Origin: Chromatiales bacterium | GTDB lineage: Bacteria > Pseudomonadota > Gammaproteobacteria > JAGRGH01 | DNA length: 64,000 nucleotides | Assembly (NCBI GenBank): GCA_020445605.1 | Contig: JAGRGH010000031.1 | Location: 124,001-188,000, forward strand | Direction: 5' to 3' | In this document: one piece after another, positions 43,567 through 56,248 of the stretch | How the letters are laid out: each line of letters opens with the position of its first letter | Position numbering within the stretch: the first letter of the stretch is position 1 | Notes under the pieces: model-generated | Database searches by the model: none | What the model was told of the DNA's origin: nothing | The model's input: only the letters and a program-made list of their open reading frames with translations | Program-made: the position numbers and the translations under genes

Positions 43567-44154
43567 TCACATCAGCATTTCCGCTGGTTCGGGATCCGCG
43601 ACGACCACGTAGCGCAGTGGCCCACCCGGTACCAGCGCGTCGAACGGATAGCAGGTCACCAGCAGCAGGCGCTCGCCCGGGGCATCGACGTCGATCGAGG
43701 TCGTGCGCGAGTCGACGATGCGCAGCTCGCGGACCCGGTAGTCCACCGCGCCGCGCGCTGATTCCAGGCTGAGCGGCATCCCGGGCGCGAGCTCACGCAG
43801 GAACCGGAAATGGGTGTCCCGATGGCCGCTGAGCACCACCGTGCGCCCATCGCCGGGCAGACCGCTGCGCGGCGCATGTCCCGGGGCGAACGCCAGCGAA
43901 TTGCCGGCATCGCCCGAGAGCACGATCAGGTCGACACCGGCCCGCGCGACCCGCAGACGCGCCACCGGCCAGTGATCGGCCCAGGGCCAGGCCTTGTGCG
44001 CTGCGCCGTCGCTGCGGGTGTCCACCCAGGCCTGTTCGAGCAGGTGCTGCGCGAGCCAGGCCTTGGCCTGTATCCATGCGCCCTGCGCGAACGTGACGAC
44101 GCCGCCCAGAACCAGCACGGTCATACCCGCGACCATCCAGCCTCGGCGGCTCAT
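43567..44154 (-). CDS. Class GN sortase (proteobacterial)
   Basis: A 195-residue transpeptidase with an N-terminal signal anchor (~residues 7-25) and a complete sortase triad: H111 in LSGHRDTHFRFL, C168 in LLLVTCYPFDAL and R181 in GGPLRYVVVA. Class GN sortases occur in Gram-negative, often marine, bacteria with one dedicated substrate. The gene overlaps the sortase-target gene by 4 bp (ATGA) and converges with the aminomutase-like gene. Confidence 0.94.
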   Translation of the reverse strand: MSRRGWMVAGMTVLVLGGVVTFAQGAWIQAKAWLAQHLLEQAWVDTRSDGAAHKAWPWADHWPVARLRVARAGVDLIVLSGDAGNSLAFAPGHAPRSGLPGDGRTVVLSGHRDTHFRFLRELAPGMPLSLESARGAVDYRVRELRIVDSRTTSIDVDAPGERLLLVTCYPFDALVPGGPLRYVVVADPEPAEMLM

Positions 44155-46154
44155 GCGCGCACCCGGCGCAGCGAGGCGAACCCGCCAAGTCCGGCGAGCG
44201 ACAGGGCAAATCCGATCAGCATCAACAGCGCGGACGGCGTGGCCCCCTGCGCGAAGCCGATCGGCGCGGTCGCCCGCACGGCCTGACCGTTGAGCGGCGC
44301 ATCCTGCGACCGCACCGGCGTGACATCCACGGCGACGAGGCTGGTGTAGGCGCTGACCAGGTGATGCTCCAGCGCCAGCGCGATGACCTCGGCGCGCACG
44401 CGCTCGTGGTCCTCGCCGCGTGATGCCGCGCGCATCCAGCCGTCGATCTTTTCGCGCGCCCAGAGCACGTCCAGCCCCGAGCCTTCGGCGGCGTTGCGCA
44501 GATCCAGATCGGCCGCCCACGGCCGCACGCCGATGCGCCCGTCCAGCCGCACGCGATCGACCGGCGCATCCAGGCGCATGATCACGGCGATCGGTTCCCC
44601 AGCGTAGAGGTCGGGAATCGGGTCGGGCGCCAGATCGGCGGCGACCGGCAGTGTCAGCGCAATGTCCGTGAGCGCCGGCCGTTCGAGCCGCGCGAACAGC
44701 TCGTCCATGCGCGAATGCAGCTCGTCCAGATTCGCGATGTAGGTGTGACTGCCGCGCCCAAACCGAGCGGCCTCGGTCATGAAATAGGCGTTCGGCGCCG
44801 AACCGATGCCAATCGTGAACAGCCGGCGATCGCCCAGGTGCTCGTGGATCAACTCGAACAGCGCGGCCTCGTTGTCGACCGCCCCATCGGTGATAAACAC
44901 CAGCTGGCGCACCCGTGCGCGGTCCGGTTTTTCGGGCATGGCGAAGACGAGTTCCAGCGCCTGGCGCATGTCCGTGCCGCCGTCGGCCTCGAAGCCCGCG
45001 ACATAGTCCTGCGCACGCGACTTGTTGCCGGCATCCGCGGCGACCGGCGCCGGGAACAGAGCGGCGGAATCGGAGGAAAAACGCACGACGTCAAAGGTGT
45101 CCGCAGGCCCGAGCCGCGCCAGCGCGCTGTCCAGCGCGGCCTTCGCGGCGCGCATGGATTCGCCGCCCATCGAGCCGGAGGTGTCGACGACGAACACGAC
45201 CTCGCGCGGCTGCACTGGGCCGCTGTCGAACCGTTCGTCCGGCGGCACGACCAGCAGCAGCCCGTAGTCGGCATCCGGCCCGGGCGCGACGAAATAGGTC
45301 GCGCGCGGCGCCTGCGCCGGCACCGGCCACCAGTCGAGCTGGAAGTCGCGATCGGAGGCGACCACGCCGTCCGCCAGATGGACCTCGACGGCGGCGGCGC
45401 TGATCTGCCGCACCTCGATCGGGTGCGAATCGCTGTGGACCTGCGCGAGGTCGAACCCCGCATCCAGAAAAACCGCGAGCTCGACCGGGTTCGAGAGCCA
45501 GCCGGACTGCGCATCCGTCTCGTCGGCAATCTGCACGCCACCCGGCAGCAGCGGCGCGGGCAGCGAAGCCTCGGGGTCGGCGGGCGGCGGCGAGTAGCGC
45601 GGCGTCACGGCCAGCGGGAACCGCAGGGAATACCGGCCATCCCGCCAGGCCAGCAGCTGCTGGAACTCGATCTCGACCTCGATCTCGCCGCGCGGCGGGA
45701 TGTTCGCGACCCGTGTCGTGAACAGGTTCGGCCGCAGGCTCTCGACCAGCGAGGCACGCTGGCCGGCATCGCGCGCGGCCTGATAGATGCGCTGGGCCTC
45801 GGCCTTCTCCTGAATCTGGCCCTCGACGATGCGATCGCCGATGATCATGCGCAGGCGGTCGACCGCGGCGTTCTCGGGCAGCGGAAACGCGTACAGGCCC
45901 TCGACCCAGACATCCGCCGGGTTGGTGAACCGCTGGCGCAGCCGGGTACGCGCGACCGGGCCGGTGACGTGTATCTCCACGTTCGAGTCCTGCTGCAAAG
46001 CCGGCAGGTACTCGCCGGCATTGTCCGTTGCGAGCAGTAGTTCCCCGCTCTTCACAGCGTTCGGCGTCAGCGCGTTCGCCCGGCCGATGAAAAGCCCCGA
46101 CACGACGGCGACCAGCGCCGCCACCTGCATCCAGCGCGACCCGTACCTGTTCAT
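44151..46154 (-). CDS. Marine proteobacterial sortase target protein (VIT + VWA)
   Basis: A 667-residue secreted protein: signal peptide (~1-28), VIT domain (~40-165, YAFPLPENAAVDRL and QAARDAGQRASLVE), VWA domain with MIDAS DTSGSMG (D324) to ~490, a C-terminal region, and a tripartite C-terminal sorting signal: hydrophobic helix (ALLMLIGFALSLAGLGG) and basic end RRVRA. At the expected LPXTG position the sequence is FAQGATP (~634-640), a marked departure. The ATG at 46154 has GGAGG ahead. It is in operon with the sortase. Confidence 0.93.
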   Translation of the reverse strand: MNRYGSRWMQVAALVAVVSGLFIGRANALTPNAVKSGELLLATDNAGEYLPALQQDSNVEIHVTGPVARTRLRQRFTNPADVWVEGLYAFPLPENAAVDRLRMIIGDRIVEGQIQEKAEAQRIYQAARDAGQRASLVESLRPNLFTTRVANIPPRGEIEVEIEFQQLLAWRDGRYSLRFPLAVTPRYSPPPADPEASLPAPLLPGGVQIADETDAQSGWLSNPVELAVFLDAGFDLAQVHSDSHPIEVRQISAAAVEVHLADGVVASDRDFQLDWWPVPAQAPRATYFVAPGPDADYGLLLVVPPDERFDSGPVQPREVVFVVDTSGSMGGESMRAAKAALDSALARLGPADTFDVVRFSSDSAALFPAPVAADAGNKSRAQDYVAGFEADGGTDMRQALELVFAMPEKPDRARVRQLVFITDGAVDNEAALFELIHEHLGDRRLFTIGIGSAPNAYFMTEAARFGRGSHTYIANLDELHSRMDELFARLERPALTDIALTLPVAADLAPDPIPDLYAGEPIAVIMRLDAPVDRVRLDGRIGVRPWAADLDLRNAAEGSGLDVLWAREKIDGWMRAASRGEDHERVRAEVIALALEHHLVSAYTSLVAVDVTPVRSQDAPLNGQAVRATAPIGFAQGATPSALLMLIGFALSLAGLGGFASLRRVRA

Positions 46155-46191
46155 TTCCTGACCTCCACGAACCATGGGTGATGGACGCAGA

Positions 46192-46241
46192 GCTTCGGCT
46201 TCACAAATGAACGCAGTACGAACGGCTTGTGAAGCCGGAGC
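46192..46241. promoter_or_regulatory. Cre-tag-like inverted repeat between sortase operon and creBC
   Basis: An inverted repeat (46192-46206 against 46227-46241, 14 of 15 bases paired; 11 perfect in CGGCTTCACAA) lies in the 129-bp divergent region. It carries TTCAC on the plus strand (46200-46204) and on the minus strand TTCAC-N6-TTCGT-N6-TTCAT from 46233 to 46207. The known CreB site is TTCAC-N6-TTCAC, so this is a likely CreB-binding region that could control both directions. Confidence 0.65.
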
Positions 46242-46283
46242 GCGGGGCGGGATCATGGCGGCTCACGAGGCCCTGCTGAGTTC

Positions 46284-46958
46284 ATGAGCCAAAGACCGCT
46301 GATCCTGCTGATCGAAGACGAGCCGGCGATCGCCGACACGCTCGTCTATGCGCTGGAGACCGAGGGCTTTGCGACGCACTGGGCCGCGACCGGCCAGGCC
46401 GGACTCGATGCCTGGCGCGAGCTCGACCCGGCGCTGATCGTGCTCGATGTCGGTCTGCCGGACATGAACGGATTCGACCTGTGCCGCAGCGTGCGCGCGC
46501 AGGCCGACGTGCCGATCGTGTTCCTGAGCGCGCGCGGTCAGGAGATCGACCGCGTGGTCGGCCTGGAGATCGGCGGTGACGACTACGTCGTCAAGCCGTT
46601 CAGTCCACGCGAACTGGTTGCGCGCGTGCGCGCGCGGCTGCGGCGCCCGCAGGCGGCCGGCAGCGGCGATGCACCGCGCTTCGAGATCGACGAGGCCGCG
46701 CAGCGCATCCGTTGCGACGGGCGCGAGCTGGATCTGTCGCGCTACGAATACCGCCTGTTTGCGATCCTGCTGCGCAGCCCGCGCCGGGTGTACTCGCGCG
46801 AACAGCTCATGCAGCTCGCCTGGGACGAACCGGAAAGCGTGTTCGACCGCACCGTGGACGCGCATGTGAAGACCCTGCGCGCGAAGATTCGCGCCGTCGC
46901 GCCGAAGGCCGACCCGATCCGCACCAGGCGCGGGCTGGGTTACGTCTACGAGCCATAG
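46284..46958 (+). CDS. creB: Two-component response regulator CreB
   Basis: A 224-residue OmpR-family regulator. The receiver has D55 (LIVLDVGLPDMNG) and K in VVKPFSPREL; the C-terminal winged helix (~130-220) has EYRLFAILLRSPRRVYSREQLMQLAWDEPESVFDRTVDAHVKTLRAKI. The sequence fits CreB, the partner of CreC, which follows after 5 bp. The related dedicated sortase regulator PdsR is the alternative; the CreC features of the neighbour favour CreB. Confidence 0.87.
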   Translation: MSQRPLILLIEDEPAIADTLVYALETEGFATHWAATGQAGLDAWRELDPALIVLDVGLPDMNGFDLCRSVRAQADVPIVFLSARGQEIDRVVGLEIGGDDYVVKPFSPRELVARVRARLRRPQAAGSGDAPRFEIDEAAQRIRCDGRELDLSRYEYRLFAILLRSPRRVYSREQLMQLAWDEPESVFDRTVDAHVKTLRAKIRAVAPKADPIRTRRGLGYVYEP

Positions 46959-46963
46959 CCGGC

Positions 46964-48400
46964 ATGAAGATCCGCACCCGCATCTTCGTCGTCTTCGTGC
47001 TGGTCACGGCCGCCGGTGTGTTCGGTCTGGTGCACTGGATGCAGAACGAACTGCGGCCGAATTACCTCCAGGCGCAGGAAGATCCGCTGGTGGATCTGGC
47101 CAACCTGCTCGCGGTCATGATCGTCGAACAGGGCCTGCTCGACCCGAAGGGACAGGCCGCTCCGGACACCGCCCTGCTCACGCGCGCGTTCGACCGGCTC
47201 GCGGTGCGCCGGCTCGCCGCGCGCATCTATGCCCTGGAAAAGACCGAAGTCGACATCCGCGTCTACGTGACCGATGCGGGCGGCCGCGTGCTGTTCGATT
47301 CCACGGGTCGCGACACCGGCGCGGACTATTCGCAGTGGCGCGACGTGCGCCTGACCCTGCGCGGCGAATACGGTGCACGTACGACCGACGGCGACCCGCT
47401 GTTCCCGGACGGCTCGACCATGTACGTCGCCGCGCCGATCACCAGCGGCGATGTGATCGTCGGCGCAGTCAGCGTGGGCAAGCCGACCCGCAGCGCGGAA
47501 AGGTTTCTGGATCAGTCCGTCGATGAACTCGCGCTCGCCGGGCTGTTCGCGGCGGCGACGGCGATCCTGGTCGCAGCGATCATCTATCTATGGGTCAGCC
47601 GCCCGCTCGCCCGGCTGCACACCTATGCCGCCGCAACCGGCGCCGGTCAGCGCACTGCCCTGCCCGCGCTGGGCAACAACGAGATCGGCCAGGTCGGCGC
47701 CGCCATCGAGTCCATGCGCAAGGCACTCGACGGCAAGGCCTATGTCGAGCATTACGTGCAGGCCCTGACCCACGAGCTGAAAAGCCCGCTGGCCGCGATT
47801 CAGGGTGCCGCCGAACTGCTCGACGAGGACATGTCCGAGGCCGACCGGCGCCGCTTTCTGGCGAACATCCGCGATCAGGTCCGCAGGCTCGGTGACATCG
47901 TCGACCGGCTTCTGGACCTCGCGGCGATCGAAAGCCGGGGCGCGCTGGAACGGGTCGAGCCGGTCGATCTGAACGCGCTGGTGGCCGGGGTCGTCGAAGA
48001 CCTGCGCCCGGTTGCGCTGGCGGGCGAAGTCGCAATCGAACTGCACGACAACCCGGGCCTGAGCACGCGCGGCGATGCGTTTCTGCTGCGTCAGGCCGTC
48101 ACGAACCTGCTGAAGAACGCGATCGAGTTTTCACCGGCCGAATCGAGCGTGCAGGTCGATCTCCAATCCGCACCGGGCGGCTCGCGGCTGCGCATCACCG
48201 ACCGCGGCCCGGGCATTCCGGCCTATGCGCGCGAGAAGGTCTTCGAACGCTTCTTCTCCCTGCCCCGCCCGGGCGGACGCAAGGGCACGGGCCTGGGCCT
48301 GACCTTCGTGCGCGAGATCGTTGCGCTGCACGCAGGCAGCGTCACGCTCGAAACGGCACCGACCGGCGGCAGCGTCGCGACCTTGGTCTTGCCCGGCTAG
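46964..48400 (+). CDS. creC: Two-component sensor kinase CreC
   Basis: A 478-residue inner-membrane kinase. TM1 (~8-28), a periplasmic sensor (~30-185) with DPLVDLANLLAVMI, LTLRGEYGART and MYVAAPITSGDVIVGAVSVGKP that match E. coli CreC closely, TM2 (~190-212), HAMP, HisKA with H270 in THELKSPLAAI, and HATPase_c (DRGPGIP, GTGLGLTFV). E. coli CreC responds to carbon metabolism state. No creD is present. The TAG stop is part of the CTAG at which the MITE-like element is inserted. Confidence 0.9.
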   Translation: MKIRTRIFVVFVLVTAAGVFGLVHWMQNELRPNYLQAQEDPLVDLANLLAVMIVEQGLLDPKGQAAPDTALLTRAFDRLAVRRLAARIYALEKTEVDIRVYVTDAGGRVLFDSTGRDTGADYSQWRDVRLTLRGEYGARTTDGDPLFPDGSTMYVAAPITSGDVIVGAVSVGKPTRSAERFLDQSVDELALAGLFAAATAILVAAIIYLWVSRPLARLHTYAAATGAGQRTALPALGNNEIGQVGAAIESMRKALDGKAYVEHYVQALTHELKSPLAAIQGAAELLDEDMSEADRRRFLANIRDQVRRLGDIVDRLLDLAAIESRGALERVEPVDLNALVAGVVEDLRPVALAGEVAIELHDNPGLSTRGDAFLLRQAVTNLLKNAIEFSPAESSVQVDLQSAPGGSRLRITDRGPGIPAYAREKVFERFFSLPRPGGRKGTGLGLTFVREIVALHAGSVTLETAPTGGSVATLVLPG

Positions 48401-48679: not shown

Positions 48680-49927
48680 ATGGCTCGCAGCGATGTCCTT
48701 TTTCTCGACGCCACGAACCAACCGCCTGCGACATCCGGACCCGATCGCGTGACCCATTCGCCACTGTCCAGCCGCGTGCGCATCGCGCAGACGGAGCTTC
48801 TGTACTTCAGCTCTCCGCTGCGCCCCGTGCTGCATGCCATCCCCGGCGGGATCCTGTTCTGGCTGACCTTCGAAACCGTCGGCGTGACCGCTTCGGGCCT
48901 GTGGTTCGCCGCCCTGATGCTGATCAACATCGGGCGTTATGTACACATCCAGGTGGTGCGCCGCACGCCGCGCGAGGCGCTCGACTGGAATCGGCTGTCA
49001 CGTCTGTTTGTAGTGGGGTCCGCCCTGGTCGGAATCGCCTACGGCGCGGGCCTCGTGTGGTTCATGCCGCAGCTCTCCGAGTTTCTGCAGCTCGCCGTGG
49101 TGTCCGTGGCCGTGACGGTCATTCCGGGCGCGATGGTTTCGTACTCCTCGAGCTGGAGCGCGTTTCTCGTCTATCTGGCGCCGAAACTCGGCCTGCCAAT
49201 GGTTCTGTGTCTGCTGCTGGGCGACGCGTTTCACCTGTACCTGTTCTTCTACGGGCTCGTTTACCTGCTGGTGCTGCTGACGTTGTTCAACTGGTACTAC
49301 AAGACGCTTGTGGAAACGATTCGCGTGCGGCTCGAAAACGCCGATCTGCTCGCCACTCTGACCGAATCCAACGAGAAGCTCACGGCGCTTTCCACGCGCG
49401 ATGGACTCACCGGACTCGCGAACCGCAGGCATCTCGATGAACTGCTTGAACATGAGCTGGTCGCCGCCACCCGCCACGGCCTGCCGCTCGCAGTGCTGAT
49501 GCTGGATATCGACTTCTTCAAAGAATACAACGACGAGTACGGCCACATCCGCGGTGATGAATGCCTGCAGGCGCTGTCCGCGATGCTGGTGTCCACCTTC
49601 AAACGCCGCACGGACATCGTCGCACGCTACGGCGGCGAGGAGTTCTGCCTGGTCGTGCCGAATACGGATGCCGAAGCTGCGCAGGACGTTGCCCGCGAAG
49701 TGCAGGCCCGCATGGCGGAACTCGACATCGAGCATCACGGCTCGCGGGTCAGCGATCAGCTGACGCTCAGCATCGGCATCGCGGCCTGGGTCCCGACGCC
49801 GGGTGACACTGCCGGCGATTTTCTGCACGCAGCCGACAGCGAGCTGTATGCCGCGAAGCGCGGCGGACGCAATCAGGTTCGCGTGCACCGGCGTGACGAT
49901 GGCGCGACGGCCGGCCCGGCGGACTGA
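48680..49927 (+). CDS. Diguanylate cyclase with membrane-sensor N-terminus
   Basis: A 415-residue protein with about six transmembrane helices (~50-215), a short coiled coil and a GGDEF domain with GGEEF (residues 318-322), so cyclase activity (2 GTP to c-di-GMP) is likely. An RRTD sits five residues upstream, the product-inhibition I-site. LTGLANRRHLDE is the domain start. The N-terminal membrane part resembles MASE-like sensors but I cannot name it. It lies just downstream of the MITE-like element. Confidence 0.92.
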   Translation: MARSDVLFLDATNQPPATSGPDRVTHSPLSSRVRIAQTELLYFSSPLRPVLHAIPGGILFWLTFETVGVTASGLWFAALMLINIGRYVHIQVVRRTPREALDWNRLSRLFVVGSALVGIAYGAGLVWFMPQLSEFLQLAVVSVAVTVIPGAMVSYSSSWSAFLVYLAPKLGLPMVLCLLLGDAFHLYLFFYGLVYLLVLLTLFNWYYKTLVETIRVRLENADLLATLTESNEKLTALSTRDGLTGLANRRHLDELLEHELVAATRHGLPLAVLMLDIDFFKEYNDEYGHIRGDECLQALSAMLVSTFKRRTDIVARYGGEEFCLVVPNTDAEAAQDVAREVQARMAELDIEHHGSRVSDQLTLSIGIAAWVPTPGDTAGDFLHAADSELYAAKRGGRNQVRVHRRDDGATAGPAD

Positions 49928-50038: not shown

Positions 50039-50674
50039 TCAGTCGCGGCGCCGTGCGCGCACAAAGCCGGCCACACCGAGCGCACCGGCGAGCAGCGCAA
50101 GCCCCGAAAGCCCCAACGCCGGCACGGCTCGCTCTTCATACACGATGTTTGCCGTGACATGGGATACGTGCAGCGTATATGAGGCGCCGTCCGGCACGGG
50201 GTTTCCAGTGATGGCAAAACTGTTACCAAACTCACAGTTGAACTGGCACACACCGACCGTATAGACCCCCGGGCCCAGCAGGTTGATATCGAGGTACGAC
50301 GCAAACCCGTTGCTCCCGGGATCACCGGCGTTGTCATCGTTATTCGACAGCAGGGTTCCTCCTGCATCCCAGATGCCGATTTCGCTGTCGAAGCTATTGG
50401 CGTCGATGTCCACGATCACGCGTCCACCCGCAGCCGAGGTGAACCGGTAGAAATCGTTGGTGCTGTCGCCCGTGGCCGATACCGACACGTGCGGGACCGT
50501 CGTCGAGTCCGTGATGTTCGCGTCGGCATCCAGCGTGAAATTGCCGTCGACGTTCTGGGCCGTAGCAGCGGTGTCATTCGGCTCGAACTCGGGTATTCCG
50601 GCTGCCTGAACACCAGCCACAGCCCCCATCAGCGCTGCGGCTAGCACCCCGTATTTCAACGTAGAGCCTTTCAC
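50039..50674 (-). CDS. Secreted PPC-domain protein with C-terminal sorting-like signal
   Basis: A 211-residue protein: signal peptide (~1-26, YGVLAAALMGAVAGVQA), a bacterial pre-peptidase C-terminal (PPC) beta-sandwich (~residues 30-165, PEFEPNDTAATAQNV, YRFTSAAGGRVIVDIDAN, SEIGIWDAGGTLLSNNDD) and a C-terminal helix with basic end (VPALGLSGLALLAGALGVAGFVRARRR), in the style of VPxxG/IPTL-type CTERM sorting signals. A GTG start (50674) with GGGGGGA ahead is preferred. The true ligand is unknown. Terminator downstream. Confidence 0.8.
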   Translation of the reverse strand: MKGSTLKYGVLAAALMGAVAGVQAAGIPEFEPNDTAATAQNVDGNFTLDADANITDSTTVPHVSVSATGDSTNDFYRFTSAAGGRVIVDIDANSFDSEIGIWDAGGTLLSNNDDNAGDPGSNGFASYLDINLLGPGVYTVGVCQFNCEFGNSFAITGNPVPDGASYTLHVSHVTANIVYEERAVPALGLSGLALLAGALGVAGFVRARRRD

Positions 50675-50696
50675 TGTGTTTCCCCCCGGATCGAGC

Positions 50697-50713
50697 AAAA
50701 ACCGCCTGGCGGT
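50697..50713 (-). terminator. Weak terminator-like hairpin after the second EptA gene
   Basis: On the minus strand a 5-bp stem ACCGC / GCGGT with loop CAG is followed by TTTTT. A second, longer inverted repeat CCCTGAG / CTCAGGG lies at 50736-50755. Either could end the SulP-EptA transcript. The hairpin is short, so the call is tentative. Confidence 0.35.
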
Positions 50714-50845: not shown

Positions 50846-52546
50846 TTATGGTGCGCCGGTTACGGCCTGCCGCTTCTCGAGCAAATGCGCGCGCGCGGGC
50901 TCCCTGTCATTGTAACGCAGCATGTCGACCTTCGGGTCGTAGACGCCGGTGTCGAGTTCAAAGAAACCGAGGACCGTGTGGAACAGCGAGTCGTGCGTGT
51001 ACGGCGCATCCCGGGCCGCCCGCACGGCGGCAAGGTCGACACCATCCAGCGACGGACCCAGCCACAGGATCGCCGGGACGTGGGTCTGGGTCTCCGGCGC
51101 GAACTGATACGGCAGACCGTGCAGATAGACACCGTATTCGCCGAGCGACTCGCCGTGGTCGCTGAAATACAGCATGGCGGTCTCGAAACCTTCGGATTTC
51201 GATTTCAACCAGTCGATCACCTGCGCCAGGAAATGATCCGTGTACGCGATCGTGTTGTCGTAGGTATTGCCGATCTGCTCATCGGTACATTCATCGAGCT
51301 GACTGGTTTCACATTCTGGAGTGAACCGCTTGAACGCCGGCGGATAGCGCTTGTAATAGGCCGGCCCGTGACTACCCATCGAGTGCAATACAACGAGCAG
51401 GTCCCGACTGCCCTGCGCATCGACCCACTGGTCCAGTTCGTGCAACATGCCCTCGTCGCGACATTCGACATCGCAGACCGGATTGACTTCCGGCTTGCGG
51501 AAATCCTGGAACTCGACGCGGTCGGCAACGCCTTTCGAACTTGAGTTATTGTCACGCCAGAGCACGGAGACCCCCGCATTCTCCAGCACATCGAGGAGAT
51601 TCTCGCGATTTCCGGCCACCTCGGCGTCATAGTTGCGCCGTCCAAGCCCCGAGAACATGCACGGCACGGAAACCGCCGTCGAGGTGCCGCAGGCGTGCAC
51701 ATTCGTGAAACTCACGATGTCGAGCTTCCCGAGTTCAGGAGTGGTATCGCGCGCATAGCCGTTGATGCCGAAGCGGTCGGCGCGCGCCGTTTCGCCGACG
51801 ACGAGCACCAGCAGTTCGCGATCTTCGTCCACGGCCGGACGCTCGGCATCGCTTCCGACGGCGACCAGCAGCTGGTTTGGATCACGCGCATGCTTCAGCC
51901 CGCGCAGATGGCGGTACACGCTGTGCACCGGAGTGGTCGGGTTCGAGTAGTAGCGCAGCTCCTTGTGCTCACGGATAAACGACGCATAGAAATTCGACAT
52001 TGGCAGCGCGGCCACCACCGCGGTCAACAGCGCTCCAACGATCAGCAAAATTCTGCGCACCAGCCCACGTCGCCAGTTCGGCGCGCGATCCAGCGAGACC
52101 CGCCATACGAACAGCGCTGGCAGCACTGCAAGCAGCACGACGTATACGAACAGTCGCGGCGTGAGGAGATCCAGCGTTTCCTGGTAGTTGGTCTCCAGGA
52201 TGTTCTGGATCATCGAATCGCCGATGATGACGTTGTAGGTATCCATGTAATAGGCGCTGCTTGCCGCCAGAAACAGGAACAGCGTCAGCATGGGACGCAA
52301 GGCACGCCCGATCCCGGCGATCGCAAATAGAAGCACCAGCGCGCAGCCGAGCACCACCGCCATGGATGCGAGGTGCAGCCACAGCTGCGGGTCGTCGTTG
52401 AACGCCTGACGCGCATTGCGGAAGAACGCAAAGTTCGCGAACGCCGTCAGGAAAACGGCGGTGACGATAATGAGCGTCTCGGGCCGCAGTGACAGCCGCG
52501 TGCGGCGGCGCGCACGTGAGGGCGGATGACGGTCTGGTGTCAGCAT
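50846..52546 (-). CDS. Phosphoethanolamine transferase, EptA-like (downstream copy)
   Basis: A 566-residue inner-membrane phosphoethanolamine transferase that probably modifies lipid A. Five N-terminal helices (~25-185) precede a periplasmic alkaline-phosphatase-fold domain with catalytic Thr in VVGETARADRFGINGYARDTTPEL, MGSHGPAYYKRYPPAFK and SDHGESLGEYGVYLHGLPY. Cysteine pairs (ACGTSTAVSVPC, VCDVEC, CETSQLDEC) are those of EptA. It has exactly the length of the copy upstream and is clearly its duplicate. ATG at 52546 overlaps the small ORF ahead of it. Confidence 0.93.
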   Translation of the reverse strand: MLTPDRHPPSRARRRTRLSLRPETLIIVTAVFLTAFANFAFFRNARQAFNDDPQLWLHLASMAVVLGCALVLLFAIAGIGRALRPMLTLFLFLAASSAYYMDTYNVIIGDSMIQNILETNYQETLDLLTPRLFVYVVLLAVLPALFVWRVSLDRAPNWRRGLVRRILLIVGALLTAVVAALPMSNFYASFIREHKELRYYSNPTTPVHSVYRHLRGLKHARDPNQLLVAVGSDAERPAVDEDRELLVLVVGETARADRFGINGYARDTTPELGKLDIVSFTNVHACGTSTAVSVPCMFSGLGRRNYDAEVAGNRENLLDVLENAGVSVLWRDNNSSSKGVADRVEFQDFRKPEVNPVCDVECRDEGMLHELDQWVDAQGSRDLLVVLHSMGSHGPAYYKRYPPAFKRFTPECETSQLDECTDEQIGNTYDNTIAYTDHFLAQVIDWLKSKSEGFETAMLYFSDHGESLGEYGVYLHGLPYQFAPETQTHVPAILWLGPSLDGVDLAAVRAARDAPYTHDSLFHTVLGFFELDTGVYDPKVDMLRYNDREPARAHLLEKRQAVTGAP

Positions 52547-52809
52547 TCGAGAACGATCCACCTGTCGAAGGCCACACATACGGTGCCGCCGATTTCCCGG
52601 AGGATGTCCTGAATCGCGCCGCCCCTCGATCGGAACCCATGGAGCGCGCTGACGGACAATCGCGAGCGTTTCACTGCGCCGTCCGGCCCATGAAAAACCA
52701 TCAGGTCGGGACCGTACGCGCGTGGATAATGGGCGAAACCCGCACTCTGTTGGCGTTCCAGATCATGCAGCTGGCAGGTCATCATGCGGCGGATCTGGAG
52801 CACCGTCAT
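52540..52809 (-). CDS. 89-aa junction ORF between the two EptA genes
   Basis: The start ATG overlaps the stop of the upstream eptA copy (ATGA, 52809-52806) and the stop overlaps the start of the downstream copy by 7 bp, so ribosomes would pass through it. Its last residues, VCVAFDRWIVLEC, echo the SulP tail VCEACDKRIFLEC. Its first part contains the 20-base segment that also follows the other eptA copy (19 of 20 identical). It therefore looks like a chimeric product of tandem duplication. No domain recognised; it may be a relic that keeps translation coupled. Confidence 0.5.
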   Translation of the reverse strand: MTVLQIRRMMTCQLHDLERQQSAGFAHYPRAYGPDLMVFHGPDGAVKRSRLSVSALHGFRSRGGAIQDILREIGGTVCVAFDRWIVLEC

Positions 52810-54506
52810 GGTGCGCCGGCCATGGCCTGACGCATCTCGCGCAGATGCGCGCGTGTCGGTTCGTCGTCGGCATAGCGCAGCATGTCGAGCTTCGGCTCGT
52901 ATACGCTGGTGTCGAGTTCGAAGAAGCCGAGCACGGTGTGGAACAGGGAATCGTGTGAATAAGGCTCGTGGCGCGCGGCCCGTACAGCCGCGGCATCCAC
53001 GCCATCCACCGACGGGCCCAGCCACAGGATCGCCGGGACGCGGGTCTGGGCTTGGGGCGCAAACTCGAACGGCAGACCGTGCAGATACACGCCATTCTCA
53101 CCAAGCGACTCGCCGTGGTCACTGAGGTACAGCATGGCGGTTTCGAATCGATCGGACTTCGGCTTCAGCCAATCGATCACCTGCGCCAGGAAATGATCGG
53201 TGTACGCAATCGTGTTGTCGTAGGTATTCCCGATCTGTCCGTTACTGCACTCGTCCAGCTGATTGGTTTCACAAACCGGCGTGAATCGTTCGAACGCCGG
53301 CGGATAGCGCTTGTAATAGGCCGGACCGTGACTGCCCATCGAATGCAGCACGATCAGAACATCCTGGCCGCCCTGCGCATCGACCCACTGGTCCAGCTCG
53401 TGCAGCATGCCCTCGTCGCGACACTCCACGTCGCAGACCGGGTTCACGTCCGGCTCGCGAAAGCTCTGAAATTCGACTCGATCCGCGACCCCCTTCGAGT
53501 CCGAGTTGTTGTCGCGCCAGAGCACGGCGACGCCCGCATGTTTGAGCACATCGAGCAGATTCTCGCGATTCGCAGCGAGTTCGGCGTCATAGTTGCGCTG
53601 CCCGAGCCCCGAGAACATGCACGGCACGGAAACCGCCGTCGAAGTGCCACAGGCATGCACATTCGTGAAACTCACGACGTCGCGCCTTGCGAGTTCCGGC
53701 GTGGTATCGCGCGCATAGTCGTTGATGCCGAAGCGGTCAGCGCGCGCCGTTTCACCGACGACGAGCACCAGCAGTTCGCGACGTTCATCGACGGCCGGCG
53801 CGCGCACATCGCGACCTACGGCGATCAGCGGTGCGTCGGCCGCGCGCGCACGACGCGGGCCGCTCAGATACCGAAGAGCGCTCGATACCGGCGTGAGCGG
53901 GTTCGTGTAGAAACGCAGCCGGCCGTGTTCATGGACAAGCGACCGGTAAAAATCGCCCAACGGCAGCACGACGGCGACCGCGGTTGCGAGCGCCGCGGCA
54001 ATCAGCAGCATCCGCCGCCGCAGCCGATGCCGCCAGCCGGGTGCGCAATGCACGGGCGTTCGCCAGACAAACCACGCCGGCAACAAGCCCAGCACCGTCA
54101 CGTAGGCAAACAGGCGGGGCGTCAGGACATCCAGCGTTTCCTGATAGTTGGTCTCCAGGATGTTCTGGATCATCCCGTCGCCGACGAAGACGTTGTAGGT
54201 GTCCATGAAATAGGCGCTGACGGCGGCCACCAGCAGAAGCAGGGTCAGCACGGGGCGCAACGCACGCCCGATCGCCGTGATCGCAAGCAGCAGCACCAAC
54301 GCGCAGCCGAGCACCGCCGCCACGGACGCGAGGTGCAGCCACAGCTGCGGGTCGTCGCGAAACGCCCGATGGGCATTGCGGAAGAATGCGAGGTTCGTAA
54401 ACGCCGCCAGAAAGACGGCGACGATGATGATCAGCGTCTCGGACCGAAGTGACAGCTGCGCGCGTGAGTGCGCGGGCGACGACAGCCTCTCGACTAGCGC
54501 CGGCAT
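52806..54506 (-). CDS. Phosphoethanolamine transferase, EptA-like (upstream copy)
   Basis: A 566-residue paralogue with the same domain plan: five N-terminal helices and a sulfatase-fold periplasmic domain with GETARADRFGINDYARDTTPEL (catalytic Thr), GSHGPAYYKRYPPAFE and SDHGESLGENGVYLHGLPF, and the same disulfide cysteines. It would transfer phosphoethanolamine from phosphatidylethanolamine to lipid A or a related acceptor, a change linked to cationic-peptide resistance. The ATG at 54506 overlaps the 3' end of the SulP gene by 13 bp. Confidence 0.93.
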   Translation of the reverse strand: MPALVERLSSPAHSRAQLSLRSETLIIIVAVFLAAFTNLAFFRNAHRAFRDDPQLWLHLASVAAVLGCALVLLLAITAIGRALRPVLTLLLLVAAVSAYFMDTYNVFVGDGMIQNILETNYQETLDVLTPRLFAYVTVLGLLPAWFVWRTPVHCAPGWRHRLRRRMLLIAAALATAVAVVLPLGDFYRSLVHEHGRLRFYTNPLTPVSSALRYLSGPRRARAADAPLIAVGRDVRAPAVDERRELLVLVVGETARADRFGINDYARDTTPELARRDVVSFTNVHACGTSTAVSVPCMFSGLGQRNYDAELAANRENLLDVLKHAGVAVLWRDNNSDSKGVADRVEFQSFREPDVNPVCDVECRDEGMLHELDQWVDAQGGQDVLIVLHSMGSHGPAYYKRYPPAFERFTPVCETNQLDECSNGQIGNTYDNTIAYTDHFLAQVIDWLKPKSDRFETAMLYLSDHGESLGENGVYLHGLPFEFAPQAQTRVPAILWLGPSVDGVDAAAVRAARHEPYSHDSLFHTVLGFFELDTSVYEPKLDMLRYADDEPTRAHLREMRQAMAGAP

Positions 54507-56248
54507 TCGAGGAAGATCCGCTTGTCGCAGGCCTCGCAGACCTTGCGGTCGAGCTTCTGGAAGATGCCGTGTATCGCCGCGGTCTTTGACTGGAACACAT
54601 TGCGCGCACCGGTCGCGTCCATGCAGCCGCAGCTCTCGAGCGATTCCCAGAGGTCTTCCTTGACGCCGACCAGATAGAAGCCACCGTCTCGCAATCGCCG
54701 CTTGGCTTCGCCCGCGAGCACCGCCCCGCCCTGCAAGTCGACGAAGTTGATGCCGTCGGCCACCACGGCAAGGTGCTTTTGCGCGGGGTTCTCGGCCCGA
54801 AGGCGATCGAAGTAGCGCTCGACGTGACCGGCGGAACCAAAGAAGATAGAGCCATCGATCCGCACGAAACGCAGTTGCGGACATTGCGGCAGGTCGGGAT
54901 CGCTCGAGAACGCGCGGTTCGGCAGGCGCGGGTCAGGCGTGCGCGTGAAGATGCGCGGCTTGGAGACCCGCTCGAGGTACAGGACCAGCGACAGCAGAAC
55001 GCCGGCGAAGATCGCGAATTCCAGTTCGAGAAACAGCGCCGAAAGGAAGGTGACCGCGAGCACGCCGGTCTCCCGCCGCGAGGCATGCAGGATGTGGCGG
55101 ATCTCGCGAAAGTCGATCAATCCCCATGCCACCAGAAACAGCACGCCGGCCATTGCCGCCTTCGGAAGATGACTCGCCAGCGGAGCCACCAGCAGCACGA
55201 TGATCATTAGCAGCAGGCCGGCCATGACCGCGGCCAGCGGTGTGCGCGCGCCCGACTCGAAATTCAGGCCGCTGCGGTTGAACGAGCCGGTCGCGACATA
55301 GCCCGAGAAGAACGAGCCCGCGACGTTGGAAAGCCCCTGGCCGATGAACTCCTGATTGCCGTCGATGCGGTAACCGCCACGCGCAGCAAGCGCACGGCCG
55401 ATCGAGACCGCCTCGGTCAGTGCGAACAGCGTCACGGCCAGCGCGGTCGGCGCCAGATGCTTGATGGCATCGAGCGTAAAGGTCGGCGAAGACAGCGGCG
55501 GCAGGCTCGCCGGCAGGGCACCGACCGTGGCGATCGTCTGATGGCCGGGTCCGAGCACAGCCTCGAGGATCGCCGCGAGGATGCCGCCGGCCAGCATCGC
55601 GGCGATCATATACGGCACCCGCGGCACCCAGCGCTTGAACGCGATGCCGGTTGCCAGCGTCGCCGTGGCCACGGTGGCCGCGGCCCAGTTCGTCTCGCCG
55701 ACATGCTCCCAGAACACCCGCAGGATGTCGTGAAAATGCCCGCCGCTGTCCATCTCGATGCCGAAGAAATGCTTGAGCTGCTTGACCGCAATCAGGATGG
55801 CGGCCCCGGCCGTGAACCCCACCACGACCGAGTGCGAGATGAAATTCACCAGCGCGCCGAGCCGGGCGAACCCCAGCGCCAATTCCAGCACGCCCACCAT
55901 GAAGGTGAGCGTGAGCGCCAGCGCGACATATTCCGGCGAGGCCGGCACCGCCAGTACGGACAGTGACGAGAACAGCACGACCGACGCGGCGGTCGTCGGG
56001 CCCGACACCAGATGTCGCGACGAGCCGAACAGCGCGGCGACGATCGCGGGCACGATGCCCGCGTACAGGCCGTACTCCGGCGGCATGCCGGCGATGGTCG
56101 CGAACGCAACGCCCTGCGGCAGCACGACGATCGCGCCGGTCAGCGCGGCGAGCGCGTCCGCCTTGAGGTCGGCCCGGCGCACGCCGGGCAGCCACTCCAT
56201 GAAGGGCAGCATCCAGCGCAGCGCGCCGGGGGCCGTAAACCTGGACAT
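54494..56248 (-). CDS. SulP family anion transporter with STAS domain
   Basis: A 584-residue transporter: ~12-14 helices (~residues 15-425) with the SulP signature GAIVVLPQGVAFATIAGMPPEYGLYAGIVP, then a STAS domain (~440-550) and a Cys-rich tail ending VCEACDKRIFLECRR. SulP proteins carry sulfate, bicarbonate or other anions; the substrate cannot be told here. It is the first gene of a four-ORF overlapping unit with the two eptA genes, an unusual pairing. Confidence 0.93.
   Translation of the reverse strand: MSRFTAPGALRWMLPFMEWLPGVRRADLKADALAALTGAIVVLPQGVAFATIAGMPPEYGLYAGIVPAIVAALFGSSRHLVSGPTTAASVVLFSSLSVLAVPASPEYVALALTLTFMVGVLELALGFARLGALVNFISHSVVVGFTAGAAILIAVKQLKHFFGIEMDSGGHFHDILRVFWEHVGETNWAAATVATATLATGIAFKRWVPRVPYMIAAMLAGGILAAILEAVLGPGHQTIATVGALPASLPPLSSPTFTLDAIKHLAPTALAVTLFALTEAVSIGRALAARGGYRIDGNQEFIGQGLSNVAGSFFSGYVATGSFNRSGLNFESGARTPLAAVMAGLLLMIIVLLVAPLASHLPKAAMAGVLFLVAWGLIDFREIRHILHASRRETGVLAVTFLSALFLELEFAIFAGVLLSLVLYLERVSKPRIFTRTPDPRLPNRAFSSDPDLPQCPQLRFVRIDGSIFFGSAGHVERYFDRLRAENPAQKHLAVVADGINFVDLQGGAVLAGEAKRRLRDGGFYLVGVKEDLWESLESCGCMDATGARNVFQSKTAAIHGIFQKLDRKVCEACDKRIFLECRR

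Follow-up and report, generated by a model that had tools for sequence, protein, structure and literature searches.

The 129-bp region between the divergent start codons of a sortase target gene (46154, minus strand) and creB (46284, plus strand) is probably a CreB-controlled promoter of the sortase operon, which would be switched on through CreC signalling and activation by phosphorylated CreB (CreB~P). This reading draws on computed gene identities, tandem half-sites with their conservation and orientation, a recurrent linkage of creBC with sortase targets, the absence of creD and phylogenetic trees.

The window, i.e. the whole stretch of 64,000 nucleotides that was analysed, belongs to an assembly of 3.36 Mb in 63 contigs. 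The original prediction held that a sortase operon and creBC share one intergenic region, and the two units indeed diverge from positions 46155-46283 (Table 1). The sortase target contains VIT and VWA domains (Pfam) and ends in a sorting signal composed of FAQGATPS, a transmembrane helix and RRVRA. AQGAT takes the place of the family-typical PxTAT in this protein (44151-44260) as well as in the Marinobacterium halophilum target (L095 3184-3290). The stop codon of the target and the start codon of the sortase gene overlap, and this adjacency, together with scores above the cut-offs of both families (TIGR03784 and TIGR03788), designates a class GN sortase with its dedicated target.

By curated families and tree position the two-component pair is assigned to CreB/CreC. 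The regulator scores 123.9 against the PdsR model TIGR03787 (below the cut-off of 335.7), and the kinase 102 against the PdsS model TIGR03785 (below the cut-off of 612.2). Comparison of recognition helices gave a CreB-type helix in the window (DRTVDAHVKTLRAK), unlike that of PdsR (DDxTITSHIKRIRxKF), and the linked CreB proteins of relatives also carry CreB-like helices, unlike PdsR. The creD family PF06123 has no match anywhere in the window genome, the E. coli control being positive. After creC comes, on the same strand, a gene for a GGDEF diguanylate cyclase (48680-49927). Further on lie a gene for a secreted protein of the DVUA0089 family, which has a C-terminal sorting-like tail of its own, VPALGLSGLALLAGALGVAGFVRARRR (50039-50698), and, next to each other, a pair of similar genes resembling those of lipid A phosphoethanolamine transferases (50846-52579 and 52806-54884), the first of which was confirmed by NCBIfam.

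Table 1. Features of the sortase-creBC locus (positions in the window)
Feature	Coordinates	Strand	Details
Class GN sortase gene	43567..44154	-	TIGR03784 197.9 bits (cut-off 158.25); Pfam Sortase
Sortase target gene	44151..46154	-	667 aa; TIGR03788 684.4 bits (cut-off 551.65)
Inverted repeat	46192..46241	.	15-nt arms, 14/15 paired; overlaps the Cre-tag-like element
Cre-tag-like element TTCACA / TTCGTA / TTCATT	46206..46233	-	11-bp spacing; predicted
creB, response regulator	46284..46958	+	224 aa; NF008296 315.5 bits (cut-off 273)
creC, sensor kinase	46964..48400	+	478 aa; NF008312 542.1 bits (cut-off 356)

The half-sites TTCAC, TTCGT and TTCAT noticed originally were found at 46233, 46222 and 46211 on the minus strand, which is that of the target, with a spacing of exactly 11 bp and with 0, 2 and 1 mismatches to TTCAC, respectively. 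The element begins 79 nt upstream of the target start codon. Since the two-site consensus TTCAC-N6-TTCAC with up to two mismatches occurs in the window about as often as chance predicts (37 sites versus 33 expected), a half-site matrix was trained instead on 64 creD upstream regions, taken from loci without a sortase target. These regions yielded the motif TTCACACnCnCTTCAn with the half-site TTCACA, and they include the putative Cre tag described upstream of creD in Stenotrophomonas maltophilia (PMC4689548), TTCACACTCGCTTCAA at -80, which the matrix recovered. Scored with this matrix from other organisms, the triple element ranks first of 127,946 window positions; shuffling the 64 kb gave a score as high 5 times in 200, and shuffling the intergenic region did not do so in 2000 trials. 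The window region has the composition of a Cre-tag promoter, with tandem TTCAC-like half-sites 11 bp apart, lying upstream of the target and oriented as it is.

At the genome scale two further places score about equally by the matrix, one match lying inside a gene (L201) and the other in a region of small ORFs that resemble excisionase genes (L202). Other CreB sites in the genome were sought by pattern only; the window element was the sole exact match, which is not independent evidence because the pattern was modelled on the window site itself. A scan of the region for sigma-70-like promoters recognised none. Activator-dependent promoters can do without such a recognisable promoter.

Half-sites were kept in the homologous loci of CreBC-linked relatives and not in those linked to PdsR/PdsS (PdsRS), which upholds their original designation as Cre-tag-like. 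In the CreBC-linked loci they form tandem arrays with 11-bp spacing, placed before the target gene and on its coding strand, with four of them in one locus (L071, TTCACACATAAGGCACACATAAGGCACACACAGGGCACACA) and the series TTCACA-TTCATA-CTCAAA, likewise at 11-bp spacing, in M. halophilum. The median matrix score upstream of the target was 8.9 in CreBC-linked, -1.0 in PdsRS-linked and 0.9 in other loci (p = 2e-7), the median three-half-site score was 8.9, -1.7 and -5.0 (p = 2e-8), and the signal of CreBC-linked loci was confined to the coding strand (p = 1.6e-7 for forward over reverse); these p-values are indicative and overstate independence, because the loci are phylogenetically related. When both strands of the whole locus were searched, the best tandem match lay directly upstream of the target and on its strand in 20 of 29 CreBC-linked loci and in none of the 16 PdsRS-linked ones. 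The target-upstream site was among the top three of the locus in 25/29 versus 3/16, and among the top ten in 26/29 versus 5/16. No good tag was found directly before the target in two loci in which creD lies between (creD-target-sortase; L066 and L067), nor before the target of the sortase-less locus L099.

The orientation of the tags bears on the possibility that the CreB site serves mainly the autoregulation of creB, the sortase operon being a passive neighbour. The creB start is indeed about 50 bp away from the element, and the tag of M. halophilum abuts creB, but whatever the layout the tags face the target, even where creBC is upstream and the tag lies between creC and the target. No tandem tag towards creB was found in the window, where the best tandem score in that direction is negative. 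We consider autoregulation as the main role unlikely. The inverted repeat was considered as a second, creB-facing tag and rejected, as it has no tandem partner.

This repeat, also part of the original prediction, is present, with arms at 46192-46206 and 46227-46241 and the one plus-strand TTCAC at 46200. It might function as a hairpin or palindromic operator through another regulator or through RNA, the 11-bp array being coincidental, and it is unusual enough to invite such a reading: among 300 dinucleotide-shuffled versions of the region just one had an equally good repeat, and the window repeat is strongly hairpin-forming (-26.8 kcal/mol, z -4.8). However, the repeat was not found in the equivalent region of M. 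halophilum, the closest counterpart, and since it is not conserved a role for it is not supported, whereas CreBC-linked loci retain the 11-bp array and PdsRS-linked ones lack it. We regard this explanation as very unlikely, and keep the tandem array as the candidate CreB target.

The association of creBC with sortase targets recurs in relatives. Of 369 gammaproteobacterial genomes, 23 contain CreC and 58 the sortase target, with 12 containing both (Fisher p = 2.7e-5). The two lie side by side in 10 of these 12 genomes, one of which (G232) was counted by inference from target-sortase-creB at a contig end; they are apart in G138 and on separate contigs in G130. The 23 CreC genomes hold 10 creBC loci beside a target and 10 with creD and without a target, so that in the sampled Gammaproteobacteria a VIT/vWA target beside creBC is as common as creD alone. 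Further relatives were added by a CreC-profile scan of GTDB genomes and additional fetches; order-level searches around three genomes (G209, G339 and G189) brought few more.

Several gene orders were encountered, namely target-sortase-creB-creC (as in three Halopseudomonas-type genomes), the divergent layout (M. halophilum, as in the window), creD-target-sortase beside creBC, and creB-creC-target-sortase, in which the target occupies exactly the usual place of creD. In several lineages a related VIT/vWA protein with a PEP-CTERM-like tail and without sortase lies beside creBC, so that the same regulator stands next to differently anchored proteins. Such creBC-linked proteins with no neighbouring sortase were seen in seven loci (L064, L099-L101, L146, L157 and L168), and the tail of L157 scores above the cut-off of TIGR02595.

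In the kinase tree, a quick tree with SH-aLRT support only and three PdsS rows, all CreC sequences fall to the same side of a starred branch (95) and PdsS forms a separate clade (100); the window kinase falls inside CreC, paired with that of M. halophilum (95), and groups with CreC rather than PdsS, as its original naming implied. The target-protein tree, also a quick tree with SH-aLRT support only, pairs the window target with that of M. halophilum, nested in an otherwise PdsRS-linked or unassigned group and away from the other CreBC-linked targets. Monophyly of the CreBC-linked targets was rejected (AU p = 0.0024) and they do not form one clade; therefore, creBC became linked to such targets on more than one occasion, and at least nine changes of the linked state are forced on the CreC tree. 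That creBC and the sortase cassette are neighbours by chance, with no consequence for regulation, as the two genomes with separated genes might suggest, is highly improbable given this repeated origin, the adjacency in several gene orders and the conserved tag motif.

The original prediction also had CreBC in the place often held by PdsRS beside sortases of this type. A swap of PdsRS for CreBC would indeed be the simplest history in the window lineage, because its genome holds no PdsS above the cut-off and its target is nested among PdsRS-linked ones. A strong PdsS match is lacking in 15 of 20 further CreBC-bearing genomes that contain the target or the related protein without sortase, and the other five have a PdsS-like kinase elsewhere. 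In G142, G411, G414, G415 and G464 a sortase lies beside creBC, together with a PdsS-like kinase elsewhere that scores below the curated cut-off.

In the proposed mechanism, CreC would detect a periplasmic or envelope signal and phosphorylate CreB. We infer that CreB~P binds the three 11-bp-spaced half-sites (46233-46206) head-to-tail and, once bound, it would switch on the genes of the surface protein and of the GN sortase dedicated to it. That CreB~P activates here and does not repress is assumed by analogy with creD. The sortase operon would then fill the position of creD as the gene set that CreBC controls locally, and CreBC would stand in for PdsRS.

Carbon-state control of the sortase system, as first proposed, is not supported, since the signals of CreC differ between species: the E. 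coli CreBC system follows carbon source and oxygen (PMC3962086), that of Pseudomonas aeruginosa responds to the loss or inhibition of PBP4 and to cefoxitin (PMC2654508), and loss of creD disturbs the envelope in S. maltophilia (PMC4689548). An envelope signal would be at least as likely as carbon, because the target is a cell-surface protein. A wider reading, which we believe and doubt in about equal measure, is that VIT/vWA surface proteins, anchored by GN sortase or PEP-CTERM-like tails, are a second direct target of CreBC, one that is widespread and has been assembled repeatedly, and that CreBC is an envelope-responsive switch of surface display and not chiefly a carbon regulator.

The genes controlled by CreBC have long been elusive (PMC3962086), and what class GN sortases do in Gram-negative bacteria has been described as unknown (PMC10581121). 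The conserved tag before the sortase target is a likely and testable on-switch for this poorly understood sortase system, and the link bears on which signal starts surface display and on the purpose of CreBC outside the creD context. Each component is known, and the CreBC-sortase wiring is undescribed in the open library that was searched; no paper there mentions it, which is weak evidence of novelty as most subscription journals lay outside the search.

The known CreBC regulon includes creD in E. coli, P. aeruginosa and S. maltophilia, with BlrAB as its equivalent in Aeromonas, and uses the cre/blr tag TTCAC-N6-TTCAC; creD usually, but not universally, lies near creBC. The window locus shares with this regulon the regulator families, the tag half-site, the 11-bp spacing, the coding-strand orientation and a tag at about -80 from the start codon (-79 in the window). 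It differs in having three half-sites, two of them imperfect, rather than two, and in its local target, a sortase and surface protein, creD being missing from the genome.

Exchange of sorting signals has already been noted for this protein family, in which the vault-protein-like members use interchangeable LPXTG/Gram-negative sortase, PEP-CTERM and GlyGly-CTERM signals (PMC3237569). Consistent with that description, the window VIT/vWA target adjoins a Gram-negative sortase (TIGR03784) and its sortase-less creBC-linked relatives end in PEP-CTERM-like tails; in contrast, the earlier work covers sorting signals and no regulator, and the window signal is AQGATP, not PxTAT. With the dedicated PdsR/PdsS sortase system (TIGR03784, TIGR03785, TIGR03787 and TIGR03788) the window shares the sortase and target families, its target protein being nested among PdsRS-linked ones, but its two-component pair is CreBC and the PdsRS-linked promoters are without the tandem tag. 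The comparison points to an apparent exchange of PdsRS for CreBC on one sortase cassette, with promoter sites that match the new regulator.
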